DNA of 64,000 nucleotides from Pseudomonas sp. R76. Lineage in GTDB: Bacteria; Pseudomonadota; Gammaproteobacteria; Pseudomonadales; Pseudomonadaceae. Positions within the stretch are counted from its first letter, which is position 1. Every line of letters begins with the position of its first letter. Positions 18,517-28,266 of this stretch are shown here, in pieces. Location of the stretch: contig NZ_CP019428.1 of the NCBI RefSeq assembly GCF_009834565.1, positions 2,046,001 to 2,110,000 on the forward strand, in the 5' to 3' direction. Position numbers and translations under genes: made by a program. The notes under the pieces are model-generated. The model searched no databases. It saw only the letters and a list, made by a program, of their open reading frames with translations, and was not told where the DNA came from.

Positions 18517-20019
18517 ATGACTATCCCGAAGGCGTCACCGCAGCGGCCAGAAGATGAGAATCTCGGCGTCGCGGCCAACATGGCTTACGGCCTGCAGCAT
18601 GTGCTCACCATGTACGGCGGCATTGTTGCCGTGCCGTTGATCGTTGGCCAGGCGGCCGGTTTGTCTCCGGCGGACATCGGCCTGTTGATTGCCGCGTCAT
18701 TGTTTGCCGGTGGCTTGGCCACGCTGTTGCAGACGCTCGGCCTGCCGTTTTTTGGCTGCCAGCTGCCGCTGGTGCAGGGCGTGTCGTTTGCCGGTGTGGC
18801 AACCATGGTGGCGATTGTCGGCAGTGATGGCGCGGGCGGGGTGCCGGCGATTCTCGGGGCGGTGATGGCCGCGTCGTTTATCGGGCTGTTGATCACGCCG
18901 GTGTTCTCACGGATCACCAAGTTTTTCCCGCCACTGGTCACCGGCATTGTGATCACCACGATTGGCCTGACGCTGATGCCAGTGGCAGCGCGCTGGGCCA
19001 TGGGCGGCAACAGCCGCGCGGCGGATTTCGGCAGCACGGCCAATATCGGCCTGGCGGCGCTGACCCTGGTGCTGGTGTTGTTGCTGAGCAAGATCGGCAG
19101 CGCGACCATCTCGCGCCTGTCGATCCTGCTGGCCATGGTGATCGGCACCGTGATCGCGGTGTTTCTCGGCATGGCCGACTTCTCCGGCGTTGCTCAAGGG
19201 CCGATGTTCGGTTTCCCCACACCTTTCCATTTCGGCATGCCGACCTTTCACCTGGCGGCGATCATTTCCATGTGCATCGTGGTCATGGTGACCTTGGTGG
19301 AAACCTCGGCGGACATCCTCGCGGTGGGCGAGATCATCGACACCAAGGTCGACTCCAAGCGCCTGGGTAACGGCTTGCGCGCCGACATGCTGTCGAGCAT
19401 GTTCGCGCCGATCTTTGGCTCATTCACCCAAAGTGCGTTCGCCCAGAACGTCGGTTTGGTGGCGGTAACCGGGGTGAAAAGTCGCTTTGTGGTGGCGACG
19501 GGCGGGGTGTTCCTGGTGGTGCTCGGCCTGCTGCCCTTTATGGGCCGGGTGATTGCCGCCGTGCCCACCTCGGTGCTCGGCGGCGCCGGGATTGTGCTGT
19601 TCGGCACCGTGGCGGCCAGTGGTATTCGCACCTTGTCGAAGGTGGATTACCGCAACAACATGAACCTGATCATCGTTGCCACCTCCATCGGTTTCGGCAT
19701 GATCCCCATCGCCGCGCCGAACTTCTACGACCACTTCCCAACGTGGTTCGCGACCATTTTCCACTCAGGCATCAGTTCGTCGGCGATCATGGCGATCCTG
19801 CTGAACCTGGCGTTCAACCACTTCACCGCCGGTAACTCGGACCAGCAATCGGTGTTCGTGGCGGGGACTGAGCGCAGCTTGTGCTTCCACGATGTGGCGG
19901 CATTGCGCGATGGGGATTACTTCAGCGGCGGCAAGTTGTTTGATGCTGAGGGGAAGGAGATTCCGGTGGTGGCGGATGTACCCAGGAAGACGGTGAAGCC
20001 CGAGACGACCGAAGTCTAA
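18517..20019 (+). CDS. NCS2 nucleobase:cation symporter (xanthine/urate permease family)
   Basis: A 500-residue permease with about fourteen hydrophobic segments. It carries NCS2 signatures: '[20 protein letters not shown]' near the start, '[18 protein letters not shown]', and in the second half '[19 protein letters not shown]' and '[22 protein letters not shown]' (the Q-N-x-G region that takes part in substrate binding). It imports a purine, most likely xanthine, urate or a related base, with protons or sodium. The ATG at 18517 fits the family; the frame opens upstream at 18436 but those residues cover the operator palindromes and are not family-like. It completes a purine uptake block with punR, punC and the Tsx-like channel. 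Confidence 0.9.
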
Positions 20020-20031
20020 ATGATCGCTCCC

Positions 20032-20134
20032 ACGCTCTGCGTGGGCGTGCATTCTGTGACGCTCCGCGTCACGACCTTGAGAGCGGACGCAGAGCGTCCA
20101 AGGGCGCATTCCCACGCGGAGCGTGGGAACGATC
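20032..20134. repeat. Compound palindromic repeat, GATCG..CCCACGCTCTGCGTGGG type
   Basis: A repeat unlike the main REP family: outer arms GATCGCTCCCACGCTCTGCGTGGG and its near complement enclose inner arms with GACGCTCCGCGTC and GGACGCAGAGCGTCC. A second copy lies at 28279-28392, 8 kb away, so the PipR-like locus sits between two copies. It closes the NCS2 transcript. Confidence 0.85.
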
Positions 20135-20136
20135 AA

Positions 20137-21069
20137 TTAGCCGGCCTTGAGGACTTTGTGCGGCATTGAACAGGCCTCATCCAAAAACTTCACCACTGTG
20201 CCCATGCACGCCTGGCGCTCTTCCACGTGGGGCATGTGGCTGGAGTCTTCAAACAGCGCCCAGCGCACGTCCGCGATTTCATCCAGGAACGGCTTGACCA
20301 CTAACGGCGTGGCCTCGTCGTGCCGGCCGGAGATCACCAGGGTCGGCACCTTGATCGCCGACAGCCGGCCAATCACATTCCAATCCTTCAAGCTGCCGAT
20401 CACGTGAAACTCGGTCGGGCCACTCATGGCGTGGTACACAGTCGGGTCGGCATCCACGGCGGCAAAAGTGCGCGCCACTTCTTCCGGCCACGGGTTGACG
20501 CGGCACACGTGCTGGTCATAAAAAATCCGCGAAGCGACGAGGTATTCCGGGTCCTGGTAGGTGCCGGCCTGTTCGTGTTTAAGCAGGGTTTCATGCACGC
20601 CTTCCGGCAACAGTTTGCGCAGGCGGTTGGCTTCGCTGACCCAGGTGCGCATGCACGTGGGGGAGTTCGCCGGGATAAACGCGCGCAGGCCCTTGGGCTG
20701 CAAAATCGCGTGTTCGCTGCCGAGCATGCCGCCCCAGGATTGCCCGAGGATCGCGTAGTTATCGCTGATTTGCAGGTGGTCGAGCAGGTTGTCCAACTCG
20801 GCGAGGAACAGGTCGATGGTCCAGAACGACGCGTCCTTATCCGGCAAGTGGGTGGAGCGCCCATTGCCCAGTTGGTCGTAGTGAATCACCGCATGGCCGC
20901 TGGCCGCCACGTCTTTGAAGGCGTCGACATAGTCGTGCGTGCAGCCGGGGCCGCCGTGAATGATCACCAACGGTGTACGGCCGGTGGTCAGGTCGCCTGT
21001 CACGCGATACCAGGTCTGGTAGGCGCCGAAGGCCGCATAGCCTTCGCGGACTTTCTCGAAGAATTCCAT
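20137..21069 (-). CDS. Proline-iminopeptidase-family alpha/beta hydrolase (first copy)
   Basis: A 310-residue alpha/beta hydrolase of the S33 proline iminopeptidase family, which removes N-terminal proline or related residues from peptides and amides. The catalytic triad is visible: Ser111 in GQSWGG, Asp250 in 'SGRHDEATP' and His277 in 'EDSSHMPH'. The oxyanion motif HGGPG is at residues 38-42. No signal peptide, so cytoplasmic. The gene is on the same strand as the LuxR regulator and downstream of it, with a lux-box-like repeat 62 bases before its ATG. The start at 21069 has AGGG upstream; the longer frame to 21117 adds hydrophobic residues that are not family-like. The substrate may be the plant-derived inducer or a peptide. 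Confidence 0.88.
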
Positions 21070-21130
21070 TTCGTACCCTGCTCTGAAAAAAAGGATCAGG
21101 GCTACAATAATCGTCACGCAACGTTTAAGT

Positions 21131-21151
21131 AACTAGCAAAACAGCTAGGTT
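21131..21151. promoter_or_regulatory. Lux-box-like inverted repeat upstream of the first hydrolase gene
   Basis: An imperfect 21-base inverted repeat. The left arm is AACTAGC and the right arm GCTAGGTT, with GCTAG/CTAGC pairing exactly. It lies between the LuxR stop and the hydrolase start, 62 bases before the latter. Its CTAGGTT arm is shared with the repeat at 22007-22028 on the other side of the luxR gene. Confidence 0.6.
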
Positions 21152-21162
21152 TTGCTGACGGG

Positions 21163-21948
21163 TCAGTCTTCCAGCAAACGGTAATGGGTGGCGCGCACCA
21201 CCGCCTGCACGCGGTTCTTGGCCCCCAGTTTGTGCATCGCCGAGGCCAGGTGCAGGGTCACTACCGCCAATGAGCGGCTCAACTGCGTGGCGATTTCAGC
21301 GGCCGTAAGGCCATCGGCGGCCCATTTCAGGCATTCGCGTTCGCGTTTGGTCAGGTGAATATGCGGGTACGTGCGTAGTTCTTTGCTGAACAGCGGGTAG
21401 GCCGCTTCCTGCAGGGCATGGGTGATCAGGCTGAAGTCCGCCAGGGTCTGCTGCGCGTCCTTCAATACCGTACGCGCCTTGCCGGTGCGCAGGCCGGTCA
21501 GTGACGCGAAGCCGCCGCGCGGCAAGTGGATGGGCACGCTGACACCGCAGGTCAGTTGGCGCTCATGCAGGTAAGAGGAAACCGGCGCGTGGCACGGGTC
21601 GATGATCTTTTGCAGTGCGGTATCGGCTTTCGCCTCGTAGGACCACACGAACGGCGACACCGTGCTCAGGGCCAGATGTTGCACCGGGTCGATCTGGTAG
21701 AAGCCTTCGCTGCACCATAACGCGTGCCAGTCGGGCGGCGTATTGCGCAGTTCCAGCACCGAAGGGGTGATCAGTGAGCCGTCCTGGTCAATCGGCACCG
21801 GCGTGTAGTCGTACACCAGCGCATCGAAGCCCAACTGCTGGGCGAGGATAAACGTATTGTCCATCTGTTCATCCAGGCTCCTGCCTGGCATGAGACGGTT
21901 ATTGAAGGCAGTAAGCTTGGCCAGCATCCGTTCTGCTCCCGAATTCAT
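21163..21948 (-). CDS. LuxR-type solo regulator, PipR-like
   Basis: A 261-residue LuxR-family regulator with an N-terminal ligand-binding domain (residues about 20-175) and a C-terminal helix-turn-helix ('LTKRERECLKWAADGLTAAEIATQLSRSLAVVTLHLASAMHKLGAKNRVQAV'). No luxI-type synthase gene is in the window. Aligned by eye to TraR/LasR, the ligand-pocket positions are Trp74 (TraR Trp57), Trp78 in place of Tyr61, Asp87 (Asp70) and Trp102 (Trp85). Tyr61 to Trp is a mark of the plant-responsive LuxR group (OryR, PsoR, PipR), which does not sense acyl-homoserine lactones. Flanking iminopeptidase and ABC-transporter genes match the PipR locus. The ATG at 21948 is chosen; a GTG at 21981 is possible. 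Confidence 0.87.
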   Translation of the reverse strand: MNSGAERMLAKLTAFNNRLMPGRSLDEQMDNTFILAQQLGFDALVYDYTPVPIDQDGSLITPSVLELRNTPPDWHALWCSEGFYQIDPVQHLALSTVSPFVWSYEAKADTALQKIIDPCHAPVSSYLHERQLTCGVSVPIHLPRGGFASLTGLRTGKARTVLKDAQQTLADFSLITHALQEAAYPLFSKELRTYPHIHLTKRERECLKWAADGLTAAEIATQLSRSLAVVTLHLASAMHKLGAKNRVQAVVRATHYRLLED

Positions 21949-22006
21949 TTGAATCTCGACTTGCGGCAAGTAGAATGCCACGCCCCGGCGAAGGACTGCC
22001 AGGCCA

Positions 22007-22028
22007 AACCTATAAGAAATACTAGGTT
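22007..22028. promoter_or_regulatory. Lux-box-like inverted repeat upstream of the second hydrolase and ABC operon
   Basis: A 22-base inverted repeat with perfect arms AACCTA and TAGGTT and a 10-base spacer. It lies 59 bases from the luxR start and 82 bases before the hydrolase gene at 22110. This spacing and symmetry fit a lux-box site for the regulator encoded next to it. Confidence 0.68.
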
Positions 22029-22109
22029 ATGGACGCGCGGCATCCTCGGTAGTGTTGGCCTGTAAACGGCCGCTACCTGCCAGGCCGATACAACACAAGG
22101 AATGTATGC

Positions 22110-22997
22110 ATGTGGCGTGAAGTTGCCCCCGACCAGCAATACAACGTGCAAGTCGACGGCCATAACCTCGTGGTCTACAGCTTTGGCGATGGCGATGAGG
22201 TGCTCTTGTGTCTCAACGGCGGTCCGGGCCTGCCGTGTGACTACTTGCGCGACGCCCATGGCTGGCTCAAAGACCATAACCTGCGAGTGGTTGCATTCGA
22301 CCAGCTTGGCACCGGCGCATCAGCCAGACCCACCGACGTTGCCTTGTGGGAAATCGGCCGTTATGTCGAAGAAGTCGAAACCGTGCGCCAGGCCCTCGGC
22401 TTGGGCCGTGTGCACTTGCTCGGGCATTCCTGGGGCGGCTGGTTGGGCATCGAATACGCCATCCACTATCCCCATGCGCTGAAAAGCCTGATCCTTTCAA
22501 ATACCGTCGGCGACATTCCGCACCTGTCCCAGGAGCTTGAACGCCTGCGCGGCGCCCTCGGCAGCGAAACCGTGGCCATGATGCAGCGCCACGAAGCCAT
22601 GGGCACCTTGGATCATCCGCAATACCAGGCCGCCATTACCTTGCTCAACTACCGCCACGTCTGCCGGCTGGACGAATGGCCGGAGCCGGTCAAGCGCTCG
22701 CTCGGTGACTGGAACATGGGCCCCTACGAAACCATGCAAGGCCCTAACGAGTTCCTCTACATCGGCAACCTCAAGGACTGGAACCGCATCCCCGAGATGG
22801 CCGAGTTCAGCATGCCGATCCTGATCACCACCGGCCAGCACGATGAGCTCACGCCCGCCTGTGCCCATCGCATGAAACTGGCCGCCAGGCATGCCGAACT
22901 GCACGTGTTCCCCAACAGCAGCCACATGCCTTTTTATGAGGAGCCCCACGCGTACTTCCCGGTGCTGCTGGACTTCCTCGCGCGTCACCGGGGCTGA
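22110..22997 (+). CDS. pipA: Proline-iminopeptidase-family hydrolase, PipA-like (second copy)
   Basis: A 295-residue S33-family alpha/beta hydrolase. The triad is Ser107 in GHSWGG, Asp245 in 'TGQHDELTP' and His272 in 'NSSHMPF'; the oxyanion motif GGPG is at residues 37-40. It differs widely from the first copy at 20137-21069, so the two are not a recent duplication. It starts an operon with five ABC-transporter genes; the first permease begins three bases after its stop. In the PipR system of Pseudomonas GM79 the pipA gene next to pipR is strongly induced by plant material through PipR, and that is the likely regulation here. The protein is cytoplasmic and would process the imported compound. 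Confidence 0.87.
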   Translation: MWREVAPDQQYNVQVDGHNLVVYSFGDGDEVLLCLNGGPGLPCDYLRDAHGWLKDHNLRVVAFDQLGTGASARPTDVALWEIGRYVEEVETVRQALGLGRVHLLGHSWGGWLGIEYAIHYPHALKSLILSNTVGDIPHLSQELERLRGALGSETVAMMQRHEAMGTLDHPQYQAAITLLNYRHVCRLDEWPEPVKRSLGDWNMGPYETMQGPNEFLYIGNLKDWNRIPEMAEFSMPILITTGQHDELTPACAHRMKLAARHAELHVFPNSSHMPFYEEPHAYFPVLLDFLARHRG

Positions 22998-23000
22998 CGG

Positions 23001-23948
23001 ATGAACCTGGCGCGCTACCGTTTTGTGCTGTCCCGGCCGCTGCAATTGCTGCCGGTGCTGTTTGGCATCAGCCTGATCACCTTTGTGCTGGTGCGTTCGA
23101 TTCCCGGCGACCCGGCGCGGGCCTTGCTCGGCTCGCGCAGCACGCCGGATGCCCTGCTGAAAATCCGTGCCCAATACGGCCTCGATCAGCCGTTGTGGCT
23201 GCAATATTTCTACTTCCTCAAGAACCTGCTCAAGGGCGATCTCGGCCAATCCCTGCTGTATAAGGTCGACGCGTTGAAGCTGATCGTCACCCGTATCGAG
23301 CCGACGCTGGTGCTGGTGCTCGGCAGTGTGGTGCTGGCGCTGTTGATTGCGCTGCCGTTGGCGACCTGGGCGGCGCGCAATAAAGGCGGCTGGGCAGACA
23401 ACCTGATCCGGGTGTTCACCACGGTCGGCCTGGGCATGCCCGCATTCTGGCTGGGCTTGATGTTGATTCTGTTGCTGAGTGTGAAGTGGGGCCTGTTCCC
23501 GGTGTCCGGCTATGGACGCACCTGGCTGGATAAAGCCCACCATATGCTGCTGCCGTGCCTGACCATCGCTCTGGCCCTGTCGGCGGTGCTGGTGCGCAAC
23601 CTGCGGGCGAGCATGTTGATGGAGTTGCAGGCCGATCACGTCACCGCCGCCCGCGCGCGTGGGCTGTCGGAGGCCGCCGTGTTCCGCCGGCATGTGTTGC
23701 CCAATTCGCTGGTGCCGGCGGTCAACCTGCTGGCGGTGAATATCGGCTGGCTGATCAGCGGCACGGTGGTGATCGAGAGCCTGTTCGCGATTCCCGGCAT
23801 CGGCCAATTGCTGGTGCGCGGCATCTTCACCCGCGACTACATGGTGGTGCAGGGCGTGGCGATGGTGCTGGCGTGTGCGACGGTGGTGGTCAACTTCCTC
23901 GCCGACGTGGTGACAGTCACCCTCGACCCACGGGTGAACATGCAATGA
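23001..23948 (+). CDS. Dpp/Opp-type ABC transporter permease (DppB-like)
   Basis: A 315-residue inner-membrane permease with six hydrophobic segments. The DppB/OppB pattern is clear: 'PVLFGISLITFVLVRSIPGDPARALLG' at the start, and the loop that contacts the ATPases in 'QADHVTAARARGLSEAAVFRRHVLPNSLVPAVNLLA' (the EAA-type motif). It forms the translocation channel with the next gene product. The start follows the hydrolase stop by three bases and its stop overlaps the next start by four bases (ATGA), so the operon is translationally coupled. Confidence 0.93.
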   Translation: MNLARYRFVLSRPLQLLPVLFGISLITFVLVRSIPGDPARALLGSRSTPDALLKIRAQYGLDQPLWLQYFYFLKNLLKGDLGQSLLYKVDALKLIVTRIEPTLVLVLGSVVLALLIALPLATWAARNKGGWADNLIRVFTTVGLGMPAFWLGLMLILLLSVKWGLFPVSGYGRTWLDKAHHMLLPCLTIALALSAVLVRNLRASMLMELQADHVTAARARGLSEAAVFRRHVLPNSLVPAVNLLAVNIGWLISGTVVIESLFAIPGIGQLLVRGIFTRDYMVVQGVAMVLACATVVVNFLADVVTVTLDPRVNMQ

Positions 23949-24802
23949 GCAGCCGCCCACTGATTGCCCCCTGGCGTTTGCGCCTGCGTTTCGGTTTTCG
24001 CAACGGTCGGCTGACCGCCGCGTGGGGCCTGTTGATTCTGCTGCTGTGGTTGGCCCTGGCGCTGTTTGCGCCGTGGATCGCACCTTTTGACCCGATTGCG
24101 CAAAACACCGAGATCAGTTTGCTCGGGCCCAGCCTGGCCCATCCGTTTGGCACGGATAACTACGGGCGCGACATTCTTTCGCGGGTGATCTGGGGCGCGC
24201 GCATCGACCTGCAACTGGCGATTGTCGGGGTGATTTTCCCTTTCATGATCGGCACTTTCATTGGCGCGGTGTCCGGCTATATCGGCGGGCGCTTCGACAG
24301 CTTCTGCATGCGTGTGATCGACGTGATCCTGGCCTTTCCGTTCCTGGTGTTGATGCTGGCGATCATGGCCATCCTCGGCCCCGGCTTGCAGAGCTTCTAT
24401 ATCGCCATGGCGCTGGTGGGCTGGGTGTCGTACGCGCGGCTGATTCGCTCGCAAATCCTGGTGCTCAAGGAAAGCGAGTTCGCCCTGGCCGCCAAGAGCC
24501 TGGGCTTTGGCCATGGGCGCATTCTGTTTCGGCACTTGCTGCCCAACGCGATGTTCGGCTCGATCGTGTTTTCCATGTCTGACGCGGTGCTGGTGCTGCT
24601 CAACGGCGCCGCCGTGAGCTACTTGGGCCTGGGCGTGCAGCCGCCGACCGCCGAGTGGGGCACGATGGTCGCCGAAGGGCAGGCGTTTATCACCACCGCC
24701 TGGTGGATCTGCACGTTTCCGGGGCTGGCAATCGTCACCTTGGCCATGGGTTTCAGCCTGCTCGCCGATGGCGTGGCGCACGTGTTGGGGGAGCGCACAT
24801 GA
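23945..24802 (+). CDS. Dpp/Opp-type ABC transporter permease (DppC-like)
   Basis: A 285-residue second permease. An N-terminal hydrophobic segment ('WGLLILLLWLALALFAPWIAPFDP') is followed by the DppC/OppC signature 'HPFGTDNYGRDILSRVIWGARIDL' and the ATPase-contact loop 'SEFALAAKSLGFGHGRILFRHLLPNAM'. It has six predicted membrane segments and pairs with the preceding permease. It overlaps the gene before it by four bases and the ATPase gene after it by four bases, so all three are made together. Confidence 0.93.
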   Translation: MSSRPLIAPWRLRLRFGFRNGRLTAAWGLLILLLWLALALFAPWIAPFDPIAQNTEISLLGPSLAHPFGTDNYGRDILSRVIWGARIDLQLAIVGVIFPFMIGTFIGAVSGYIGGRFDSFCMRVIDVILAFPFLVLMLAIMAILGPGLQSFYIAMALVGWVSYARLIRSQILVLKESEFALAAKSLGFGHGRILFRHLLPNAMFGSIVFSMSDAVLVLLNGAAVSYLGLGVQPPTAEWGTMVAEGQAFITTAWWICTFPGLAIVTLAMGFSLLADGVAHVLGERT

Positions 24803-25836
24803 GCCTGCTTCAGGTGCGGGACCTCAGCGTGATCGCCCACAATGCCGGGCGCGATGTCACCTTGGTCGACCGGGTGTCCTTTGACCTGGCCGAAGGTGAG
24901 ATCCTCGGGCTGGTGGGCGAGAGCGGCTCGGGCAAGACCATGGCCTGTCGCGGGCTGATGCGCCTGTTGCCGTCGCCCAACCTGCGCGTGCAAGGCGGTG
25001 CTGTGCGCCTGGCCGGGCAAGACTTGTTGGCGTTGGATGACGCCGGCATGCGCGCCATACGCGGCGGGCAATTGGGCATGATCTTCCAGAACCCCAGCAG
25101 CCACCTCGACCCGTTGATGCGCATCGGCGAGCAGATCGCCGAGGGCATCCGCCTGCACCAGGGCGCGTCGAAAAAAGACGCGCGCCTGCAGGCCATCGAG
25201 GTGCTGCGTCAGGTGGGCATTCCCGATCCCAAGGTGCGGGTCGACAATTACCCACACGAGTTTTCCGGTGGCATGCGCCAGCGCGCGATGATTGCCGTGG
25301 CGCTGGGTTGCAACCCGAAAGTGCTGATCGCCGACGAGCCGACCACCGCCCTCGATGTGACGGTGCAGGCGCAAATCCTGCGCCTGTTGCTGGACCTGCG
25401 CGACAGGCGCGGCCTGTCGATCATCATGATCACCCACGACCTCGGGGTGGTGGCGCAGACCTGCGACTCCATCGCGGTGATGTACGGGGGGCGCCTGTGC
25501 GAGCACGGCAGCAAGTACGACCTGCTGGCCCATCCGCAACACCCGTACACCGCCGGCCTGATCGATTGCCAACCGGCCCACAGCAGTGGCCACGCCTTGC
25601 TGCGCACGATTCCCGGGCAGCCGCCGTTGCTGGATGCATTGCCCGACGGTTGCCGCTTCAACCCGCGCTGCCCGCAGGCGCGCGCGTTGTGTACCGAGGT
25701 GCTGCCGGAAGGCACGCGGGTGGCGTGTCACTATCCGTTGGGAGATCGCCCACAAGCCTGTTGCAGATCAAGGACCTTGAGGTGCGTTTTGCCGCGTCCG
25801 GCACGGGCATGTTCAGCCTCAATAAACAGTGGGTGA
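24799..25836 (+). CDS. Dpp/Opp-type ABC transporter ATPase (DppD-like), with an out-of-frame tail
   Basis: A 345-residue ATP-binding subunit. Walker A is GESGSGKT, the ABC signature is FSGGMRQR and Walker B is [11 protein letters not shown]; the C-terminal oligopeptide-type domain contains '[14 protein letters not shown]'. The domain normally ends just after 'VACHYPL'. Here the frame runs on for about 30 more residues that are rich in Cys and Arg and simply read the next gene's codons in another frame. I infer that the ancestral stop was lost by a small change near 25740. The core ATPase should still be intact. Confidence 0.9.
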
Positions 25837-26750
25837 GGGCGGTCAACGGCGTGTCGCTGAACCTGGCCGCAGGCGAAACCCTGGGGCTGGTCGGCGAGTC
25901 CGGCAGCGGCAAGAGCACGCTCGGCCGGGCGATCCTGCACCTCAACCCGATCAGCGCCGGCCAAGTGCTGTTTGACGGCATCGACATGGCCCACGGCAGT
26001 GCCATCGATATCGCGCGCCTGCGGCATGATACCGCGATGATCTTCCAGGACCCGTACGCCGCGCTGAACCCCCGCCACACCATCGGCGAAACCATCGGCG
26101 AAGTGTTACGCGTGCAGCGCAAAGTCGCCCCGCAACAGATCGCGGCGCGCGTCAATGAACTGCTCGACCTGGTCGGCCTGCGCCCCGAACTGGCTAGTCG
26201 CAAACCCGCTTCCCTCAGCGGCGGCCAGTGCCAGCGCGTCGGTATCGCGCGTGCCTTGGCGGTGGAGCCGCGCTTGATCATCGCCGATGAATGCGTGGCG
26301 GCGCTGGATGTGTCGATCCAGGGCCAGATCATCAACCTGCTGCTGGAACTGCAACAGCGCATGAACCTGGCGATTCTGTTTATCGCCCACGACCTGGCCA
26401 TTGTGCGTCGCCTGTGCGACCGCGTGGCGGTGATGTACTTGGGCAAGATCGTCGAAGAAGGGCCGGTGGAAGCGGTGTTTACCGCGCCGCGCCATCCGTA
26501 CACGGCGGCGTTGATCGAGGCGATCCCCGAGATCGATCCGCATCGGCCATTGCCTGCAGAACCATTGCCGGGCGAGCCACCAAGCCCGCTGAATTTGCCT
26601 ACAGGCTGCGCCTTTCACCCGCGTTGCCGACATGCCCGGACGATGTGTTCCGTGGTGTTGCCGCCGACGCATTTCCTGCACGAGCATCGATACAGTTGCG
26701 TGCTTGAACAGCCATTGACCCTTTCTGCCGTCCTAAACAAGGAGTTATGA
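25725..26750 (+). CDS. Dpp/Opp-type ABC transporter ATPase (DppF-like)
   Basis: A second ATPase subunit of about 341 residues. Walker A is GESGSGKS, the signature LSGGQCQR, and Walker [13 protein letters not shown], where the usual Pro after DE is Cys. The C-terminal domain has '[14 protein letters not shown]'. The first family-like residues, [11 protein letters not shown], begin near 25758, but no ATG precedes them: the options are a GTG at 25725 or a TTG at 25761. Either start makes the gene overlap the previous one by 76-112 bases, far more than the four-base overlaps elsewhere in this operon. It forms a heterodimer with the DppD-like subunit. Confidence 0.85.
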
Positions 26751-26751
26751 C

Positions 26752-28266
26752 ATGCAATCCCGTCACTTGAAGTTGCTCGCCGCCGCTACATTAACGGCGT
26801 GGTCTCTTACCGCTGGCTTGGCGCAAGCCGCCGGCGTACTGACCATCGGCTGCCGTGAAGACAGCACCACCTTCGACCCGATCAAAAGCGCGCAAAACCG
26901 CGACACCTGGGTGTTCGCCAACGTCTACGACACGCTGGTGCGCGTGGATAACCTGGGCACCAAGATGGAACCGGGCCTGGCGCAAAGCTGGGAGATTTCC
27001 AAGGACGGCCTGACCTACACCTTCAAATTGCGCGAGGCGAAGTTCTCCGACGGCTCGCCGATCACCGCCGACGATGCGGCGTTCAGCTTGCTGCGTATCC
27101 GCGACAACAAGGCCTCGCTGTGGAGCGACCCGTTCAGCCTGATCAACACCGCCAAGGCGTCGGACCCGCAAACGCTGGTAGTCACCCTGAAAACCCCGGC
27201 TGTAGCCTTCCTCTCGCAATTGGCGTCGCCGACGGTGTCGATCCTGTCGGAAAAGGCCATGACCAAAATGGGCGAAGACGCCTACTCGGAAAACCCGGTG
27301 ACCTCCGGAGCGTTTACCGTGGAAGAGTGGCGCAAGGGCGATCGGGTCATTCTCAAGAAGAACCCGAACTTCTGGCAGGCCAAAAACGTCAGCCTGGATG
27401 GCGTGGAGTGGGTGTCGGTCACCGATGACAATACGCGCATGCGCATGGTGCAGAACAACGAACTCGACACGGCGATCTTCGTACCGTTCTCCCGCGTCGA
27501 AGAGCTGAAGAAAGACAAAAACGTAGTGATCCACGCCGACCCGTCCACCCGTGAAGATCACTTGCTGATCAACCACGCCCACGGCCTGCTGGCCAAGCAG
27601 CAGGTGCGCGAGGCGCTGGACATGGCCATCGATAAACAATCGCTGGTCAAGACCGCCACCTACGGTCAAGGCACCGTGGCCTATTCCTACATCCCCAAAG
27701 GCTCGCTGTACCACTACGCCAACAACCTGCAACGCCCGTATGACCCGACCGCTGCCAAGAAACTGCTGGAAGAGGCTGGCGCCAAGGACTTGAAGCTCAA
27801 TTACGTGGTCAACGCCGGCAACGAAGCCGACGAGCAGATTGCGGTGATCATCAAGGACCAGTTGGCCAAGGTTGGTGTGACCGCCAACCTGCAGAAAGTC
27901 GACCCGACCCAAAGCTGGCAGATGCTGGTGGACGGTGAGTACGATATTTCGGTGATGTACTGGACCAACGACATCCTCGACCCGGACCAGAAGACCACCT
28001 TCGTGCTGGGCCACGACACCAACCAGAACTACATGACCCGCTACAAGAACGACAAGGTCAAGGCACTGGTGGCGGCGGCGCGGATCGAGGCCGACCCGGT
28101 CAAGCGTGAGCAGATGTATGTGGAATTGCAGAAGCTGGCGAAACAGGACGTGAACTGGATCGACTTGTACTACAGCCCGTACATCAACATCTCACGCAAG
28201 AATGTGAGCAACTTCCTGCAGAACCCGCTGGGGCGTTTTACCCTGGAAGAAGTGGTGAAAAACTAA
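26752..28266 (+). CDS. ABC transporter substrate-binding protein (SBP family 5, DppA-like)
   Basis: A 504-residue periplasmic binding protein. A signal peptide (residues 1-26, ending AQA before AGVLTIGC) precedes a family-5 domain: 'FANVYDTLVRVDNLGTKMEPGLAQSWEISKDGLTYTFKLREAKFSDG'. AAGGAG lies eight bases before the ATG. Family-5 proteins bind peptides, nickel, opines or sugars; the ligand is not readable. As the last gene of the hydrolase/ABC operon it should capture the peptide-like or amide compound that the LuxR regulator responds to. In the PipR system the transporter is required for the response. Confidence 0.92.
   Translation: MQSRHLKLLAAATLTAWSLTAGLAQAAGVLTIGCREDSTTFDPIKSAQNRDTWVFANVYDTLVRVDNLGTKMEPGLAQSWEISKDGLTYTFKLREAKFSDGSPITADDAAFSLLRIRDNKASLWSDPFSLINTAKASDPQTLVVTLKTPAVAFLSQLASPTVSILSEKAMTKMGEDAYSENPVTSGAFTVEEWRKGDRVILKKNPNFWQAKNVSLDGVEWVSVTDDNTRMRMVQNNELDTAIFVPFSRVEELKKDKNVVIHADPSTREDHLLINHAHGLLAKQQVREALDMAIDKQSLVKTATYGQGTVAYSYIPKGSLYHYANNLQRPYDPTAAKKLLEEAGAKDLKLNYVVNAGNEADEQIAVIIKDQLAKVGVTANLQKVDPTQSWQMLVDGEYDISVMYWTNDILDPDQKTTFVLGHDTNQNYMTRYKNDKVKALVAAARIEADPVKREQMYVELQKLAKQDVNWIDLYYSPYINISRKNVSNFLQNPLGRFTLEEVVKN

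Follow-up and report, generated by a model that had tools for sequence, protein, structure and literature searches.

The closest described relative of the locus reported here is the Pip/Aap system of Pseudomonas GM79, in which the LuxR solo PipR governs two hydrolase genes, pipA and aapA, and the importer gene aapB is needed for the response (PMC4981722). The binding protein AapF of Pseudomonas sp. PDC86 has been crystallised with the ethanolamine-derived compound HEHEAA (PDB 7KZ9; PMC11168924). An earlier paper (PMC8546723) reports the PipR/OryR-type subgroup of LuxR proteins to be very widespread among fluorescent pseudomonads. The present analysis concerns a window of 64,000 nucleotides from Pseudomonas sp. 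R76, whose genome comprises 6.83 Mb in 2 contigs. Positions 20137-28266 of this window very probably constitute a complete orthologous Pip/Aap plant-signal locus with HEHEAA or a close analogue as the signal. The locus is a well-supported further member of the known GM79-type system, and would place complete HEHEAA-type sensing in another fluorescent Pseudomonas lineage.

The interval is occupied by eight genes whose frames are open and whose Pfam domains are those expected, and all eight are found in the same order and orientation in the GM79 locus (L036, NZ_AKJE01000085.1). On the minus strand lie pipA (20137..21069; 310 aa from ATG 21069; 76% identical to its GM79 counterpart), encoding a proline-iminopeptidase-type alpha/beta hydrolase with an Abhydrolase_1 domain, and pipR (21163..21927; 254 aa; 73%), encoding a LuxR solo with Autoind_bind and GerE domains. 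Divergent from these, on the plus strand, are aapA (22110..22997; 295 aa; 87%), which encodes an alanine-aminopeptidase-type hydrolase of the alpha/beta class by Pfam, and five importer genes. The latter encode the permeases AapB (23001..23948; BPD_transp_1; 88%) and AapC (23945..24802; BPD_transp_1 and OppC_N; 85%), the ATPases AapD (24799..25836; 79%) and AapE (25737..26750; 80%; start uncertain, overlapping aapD), both with ABC_tran and oligo_HPY, and the periplasmic binding protein AapF (26752..28266; SBP_bac_5; 80%). The plus-strand genes from 22110 to 28266 are separated by short gaps or overlaps. An alternative GTG start of pipA at 21117 (minus strand) gives a 326-aa form, and pipR could also be read as 261 or 272 aa; the 326-aa and 272-aa forms were those used in the Pfam search. 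The 254-aa start of pipR at 21927 is preferred, and a Shine-Dalgarno-like GGGAG precedes it at 21936..21940 (minus strand).

AapF of the window is identical to the crystallised AapF (PDB 7kz8/7kz9) at 458 of 480 aligned residues, and two of the 22 differences fall at the first two aligned positions. A profile search found no LuxI match in the host genome (no control genome matched in that run either), and the same model matched two of four other genomes in a separate run. The preliminary description of this stretch had proposed a complete PipR-like locus in which a LuxR regulator without a synthase gene sits between two iminopeptidase-family hydrolases, one of them leading a five-gene importer, as in GM79. 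The intact genes, their domains, the null LuxI search, and identities of 73-88% across a shared layout bear this out, including the GM79-type divergence of aapA and aapBCDEF from pipR.

Among the best 80 of at least 474 confirmed loci from a LuxR-alignment scan of named genomes, 64 carry pipA, aapA, and aapBCDEF, all above 50% identity, while 12 are without aapA, 2 have pipA only, 1 is without aapF, and 1 is without aapDEF; some of these losses may be contig ends. A genus sample contained the LuxR protein at E <= 1e-60 in 41 of 199 genomes, the host included. Two pipR-type genes occur in Pseudomonas sp. FEN (L032 and L053), the second on a 17.9-kb contig at a distance of nearly 9 kb from its pipA match, an arrangement suggestive of duplication and rearrangement. 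Another genome of the genus has, besides its normal copy, a second pipR-like gene (G101:C15:70252-70992) that is 45% identical to that of the window.

To place the receptor, a tree was built from 27 PipR-type proteins and five comparators, namely an optimised RhlR variant, QscR, SdiA, and the two other LuxR solos of the host; OryR, XccR, and NesR were not among the sequences. A 99/99 branch separates all 27 PipR-type proteins, GM79 PipR included, from the comparators, which is the grouping that the preliminary description had put forward for verification. Because the comparators sit on long branches and the 26 other PipR-type rows were drawn from relatives found in the LuxR scan, the informative point is the position of GM79 PipR among the 27. 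At the position of TraR Tyr61, tryptophan occupies all 27 PipR-type rows, while the comparators have tyrosine (four of five) or aspartate (one of five). The window residue is Trp71 in the 254-aa form and Trp78 in 261-aa numbering, the number under which the substitution was first pointed out. Equivalents of Asp70 and Trp85 are conserved in 27 of 27 rows. The window PipR has threonine where the comparators have tyrosine, at a position that we take to correspond to TraR Tyr53.

At the position of TraR Trp57, tryptophan is found in all 17 Pseudomonas rows, the window included, and methionine in the ten others. Methionine at this position has been described for the PipR/OryR-type group (PMC10134790), and GM79 PipR is a stated exception that keeps tryptophan (PMC4981722). 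The window protein does not carry this methionine, which is not defining for the GM79 branch since GM79 PipR and the 17 Pseudomonas rows have tryptophan. The window and GM79 thus share a Trp/Trp pocket. The combination of Autoind_bind and GerE domains, no LuxI match, tryptophan at the Tyr61 position, an adjacent pip gene, and grouping with PipR is that of the PipR/OryR-type subgroup.

The equivalents of Trp57, Asp70, and Trp85 would also be kept in an AHL (acyl-homoserine lactone) receptor, and the protein could in principle eavesdrop on the quorum sensing of others. This is extremely improbable: the Tyr61-to-Trp change, the threonine in place of tyrosine, the position of the protein with PipR in the tree, and the indifference of GM79 PipR to six AHLs (PMC4981722) speak against it, and the reading was rejected on tree and pocket. 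The host genome encodes three Autoind_bind proteins. The two LuxR solos other than PipR are L001 (G000:C1:5882157) and L003 (G000:C1:5649389); by eye, L001 adjoins a ferredoxin-NADP-reductase-like gene, an arrangement of the PpoR type (subgroup A in PMC8546723).

PipR-type boxes lie ahead of both hydrolase genes. The box of pipA, AACCTAGCTGTTTTGCTAGTT (21131..21151, minus strand), has its dyad centre at -71.5 from ATG 21069, the same distance as in GM79, and the box of aapA, AACCTATAAGAAATACTAGGT (22007..22027, plus strand), is centred at about -92.5, the GM79 value being -91.5 (PMC4981722). The pattern AACCTA-N10-TAGTTA is kept in 11 of 12 aligned pipA upstream regions, that of the window included, the exception being P. 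protegens (L063), and the half TATAGGTTT is kept in ten of ten aligned aapA-pipR regions. LuxR-type activation is expected to place the -10 hexamer some 34-35 nt downstream of the box centre. Direct reading offers a putative -10 for pipA (TATTGT, 21104..21109, minus strand) about 34 nt from its box centre and one for aapA (TAGTGT, 22050..22055, plus strand) about 35 nt away. A loose genome search for a wider PipR regulon, allowing two mismatches, was uninformative (1113 matches, against 4057 in the reversed control). The promoter at 22110 had been suggested for a reporter fusion; it is the weaker choice because in GM79 aapA depends on PipR only weakly and pipA (here from ATG 21069) strongly (PMC4981722).

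Two other systems delimit the comparison. The locus of P. protegens FD6 (L063), here labelled PsoR-type, resembles that of the window in having a same-group LuxR solo beside pipA but differs in that neither aapA nor an importer was found in its 18.8 kb. In a review table, PsoR of strain CHA0 is accompanied by pip and a peptide transporter, a combination that the FD6 locus does not show. The loci of Kosakonia (L065 among them), here given the label PsrR-type after PMC7301841, share the LuxR solo, pip, the importer, and a sigma-54-type element (see below) with the window; unlike it, they have methionine at the Trp57 position, and aapA is missing from the four Kosakonia loci.

Several points weigh against assigning HEHEAA to the R76 locus. 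PipR is 73% identical to GM79 PipR. At a pocket-roof position, glutamate stands in the window protein where GM79 has lysine (K96); glutamate is also printed for Kosakonia PsrR (PMC7301841), and the substitution suggests caution on the identity of the ligand. In Kosakonia KO348, the pip promoter was unresponsive to HEHEAA, ethanolamine, and root macerate (PMC7301841). The strict pattern shared by the two boxes has two matches in the genome, both in this locus, and four in the reversed control, so the count is not above chance, and position and conservation carry the weight. Finally, the R76 locus is characterised from sequence, and no experiments on this strain are known to us. The lysine-to-glutamate change, the lack of a HEHEAA response of the Kosakonia promoter, and the additional response of GM79 PipR to peptone and Ser-His-Ser (PMC4981722) would suit the same machinery serving another peptide-like compound of plant or microbial origin. 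Such a substitute for HEHEAA is quite unlikely given how little AapF departs from the HEHEAA-bound chain over the 480 aligned residues. With a near copy of the crystallised importer protein on one side and a receptor pocket that differs at a named position on the other, the specificities of receptor and importer become separately testable.

The Ser-Asp-His motifs are intact in both hydrolases (one set reads GHSWGG/GQHDELTP/SSHMPF), and PipA and AapA are 34% identical over 268 residues, in agreement with the earlier statement that their triads are intact and their sequences widely different. Proline iminopeptidases are the closest solved relatives of both, and PipA matches a "putative proline iminopeptidase" (PDB 7a6g) with 508 bits. 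The further proposal that the two enzymes process different compounds fits the GM79 proteins, of which AapA prefers alanine and PipA proline (PMC4981722); as part of that published system, the pair of differing hydrolases is not new. Loss of either enzyme raises the response in GM79 (PMC4981722). The 12 loci that have pipR, pipA, and the importer without an aapA above 50% identity are L041, L042, L046, L051, L052, L056, L078, and L083, together with L065, L068, L070, and L075 of Kosakonia; the second hydrolase thus seems dispensable in some lineages.

The genes, their order, the boxes, the pocket residues, and the near-identity of AapF are properties of the window itself. The ligand, the import requirement, the activation, and the feedback would follow by analogy with GM79 or the crystallised homologue. 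AapF would capture HEHEAA or a close analogue in the periplasm, AapBCDE would import it, and PipR, with its changed pocket, would bind it in the cytoplasm and activate pipA strongly and aapA-F weakly from the boxes at -71.5 and about -92.5. The peptide-like signal would then be acted on by PipA and AapA, with a dampened response as the outcome. Chemically, HEHEAA is an N-substituted glycinamide whose terminal secondary amine resembles that of an N-terminal proline, so an iminopeptidase could cut its amide and release ethanolamine, which the host, whose genome has an EutB match, may be able to use.

The same components could form a nutritional operon, controlled by a nutrient-responsive regulator, that scavenges dipeptides or ethanolamides and in which plant signalling is incidental. 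A Dpp/Opp-type importer beside two aminopeptidase-type hydrolases, the EutB match, and the sigma-54-type element ahead of pipR are consistent with this, and the induction of a Xylella pip gene under nitrogen starvation, reported in PMC3224663 for a gene not shown to be PipR-type, is a weak point in its favour. In GM79, the system is reported to serve signalling, and a pipR mutant grew no differently from the wild type in M9-succinate (PMC4981722). Scavenging as the primary function is unlikely, although it is compatible with the signal-responsive Pip/Aap locus preferred here.

What may be new in this locus is an element of the sigma-54 -24/-12 type upstream of pipR, TGGCATTCTACTTGC (21966..21980, minus strand), which has the form GG-N10-GC, agrees with TGGCAY-N5-TTGC, and is separated by 38 nt from ATG 21927. 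The sigma-54 consensus is given as TGGCACG-N4-TTGC in PMC3224663. No description of such an element ahead of pipR was found in the literature, the coverage of which was partial and does not show absence from print. A gene of the rpoN type is present in the host genome (Sigma54_DBD). If real, the element would tell what controls the expression of the receptor itself and may help explain the weak or absent responses to plant extracts that this family shows in some laboratory tests. Transcription of pipR from such a promoter is a prediction whose chances are near even at best.

The motif alone is weak evidence, and position and conservation carry the case. The single TGGCAYN5TTGC match in the window means little, since the chance expectation is 0.60 and at least one match turned up in 42 of 100 shuffles. 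The strict pattern TGGCAYN5TTGCW, whose final W we assume, has nine matches genome-wide against five in the control, and excludes the site of the window, where the next base is C. Conservation was counted over distinct upstream regions, GG and GC being required and no more than one other mismatch to TGGCAYN5TTGCW tolerated. By this count, the element occurs in 26 of 27 regions with a LuxR identity of at least 85% and in 18 of 28 regions at 58-85%, where two have two mismatches and eight miss; the regions of this second set are all titled Pseudomonas or drawn from the genus, except one metagenome-assembled genome titled Paucimonas. It is also present in nine of nine Enterobacterales regions with five spacers, among them L083, which is titled Martelella alba but falls there in the tree, and in 0 of 16 Rhizobiales regions. 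Five loci presumably of the P. syringae type (L041, L042, L046, L051, and L052) all keep both halves, with three further spacers. Against a background of 0.002-0.004 elements per 140 nt over 23 whole 18-kb loci, the element occurs within 140 nt upstream of the matched pipR start in eight of nine Enterobacterales loci (the ninth site, in L078, lies a few nt beyond), in five of five P. syringae-type loci, and in nine of nine further loci, the last group having been chosen from loci already known to have it. Searches for further Enterobacterales returned one match in 369 genomes of the class, the window's own, and two in 394 genomes of the order, one of them from the known L078 genome, too few for an independent test.

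The rival account, in which the TGGCATTCTAC block is a sigma-70 extended -10 or some other element rather than a sigma-54 promoter, itself comes close to an even chance. It draws on the regions in which the -12 half is lost or degraded: eight of the 28 more distant regions, one of the 27 close ones, and three of five new regions (a second set of 12 regions contained seven repeats, and two of the five new ones match). In part of a putida-type branch, which the three new misses and several earlier ones resemble, GTGGCATTCTAC is retained without GC, which suggests a second function of the -24 half, perhaps as a sigma-70 extended -10; the element is preserved in other putida-type members, for example L040 and L045. 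The -12 half is degraded in other ways in L056, L057, and L063 (P. protegens FD6), L057 having GC with TT gone. By eye, TGGCATTCTA persists in all twelve regions with a lost or degraded -12 half. Also unfavourable to sigma-54, no convincing enhancer-binding protein site was found in the loci of 20 relatives, where the best NtrC-like matches reached 8-11 of 14 positions. For P. syringae pv. actinidiae, the promoter of psaR2 is reported to have high activity (759 Miller units) without autoregulation (PMC3909224), which, if it can be carried over, does not favour strict sigma-54 gating. The preservation of both halves in all Enterobacterales and P. syringae-type loci despite changes of spacer argues for sigma-54 and against this account.

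The block TGGCATTCTAC is kept exactly or nearly so, without the -12 half, in L039, L048, L050, L054, L055, L100, L126, L128, and L130, and seems to have a further reason for its conservation. A coding N-terminal extension of PipR was considered as this reason and is disfavoured: the distance from block to ATG varies among Pseudomonas loci (53, 58, 62, 66, 67, and 71 nt), partly out of frame, and in-frame stops intervene, for example in L032, L035, and L046. The coding reading keeps some likelihood in the putida-type branch, where the block can also be taken for a run of conserved codons. Owing to the variable distances and the stops, the aapA box of the window, like the -24/-12 element, is placed outside the 254-aa pipR frame; the GM79 paper, in contrast, puts the aapA box inside the annotated pipR (PMC4981722).

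Should the sigma-54 promoter be real, the locus may operate as an AND gate in many Pseudomonas and Enterobacterales. A sigma-54 enhancer-binding protein, perhaps reporting nitrogen status, would license pipR expression before HEHEAA switches on the peptidases, and Pip would be a nitrogen-aware module for scavenging and sensing, with a gate that the Rhizobiales loci lack and that has decayed in some members of the putida-type and protegens-type branches. This extension is speculative, with a probability that falls somewhat short of even.

Outside the locus proper, a short GC-rich repeated element (CCCACGC...GCGTGGG, CGCTCCGCGT) occupies 20019-20140, between a xanthine/uracil permease gene and pipA, and is probably a dispersed intergenic repeat.

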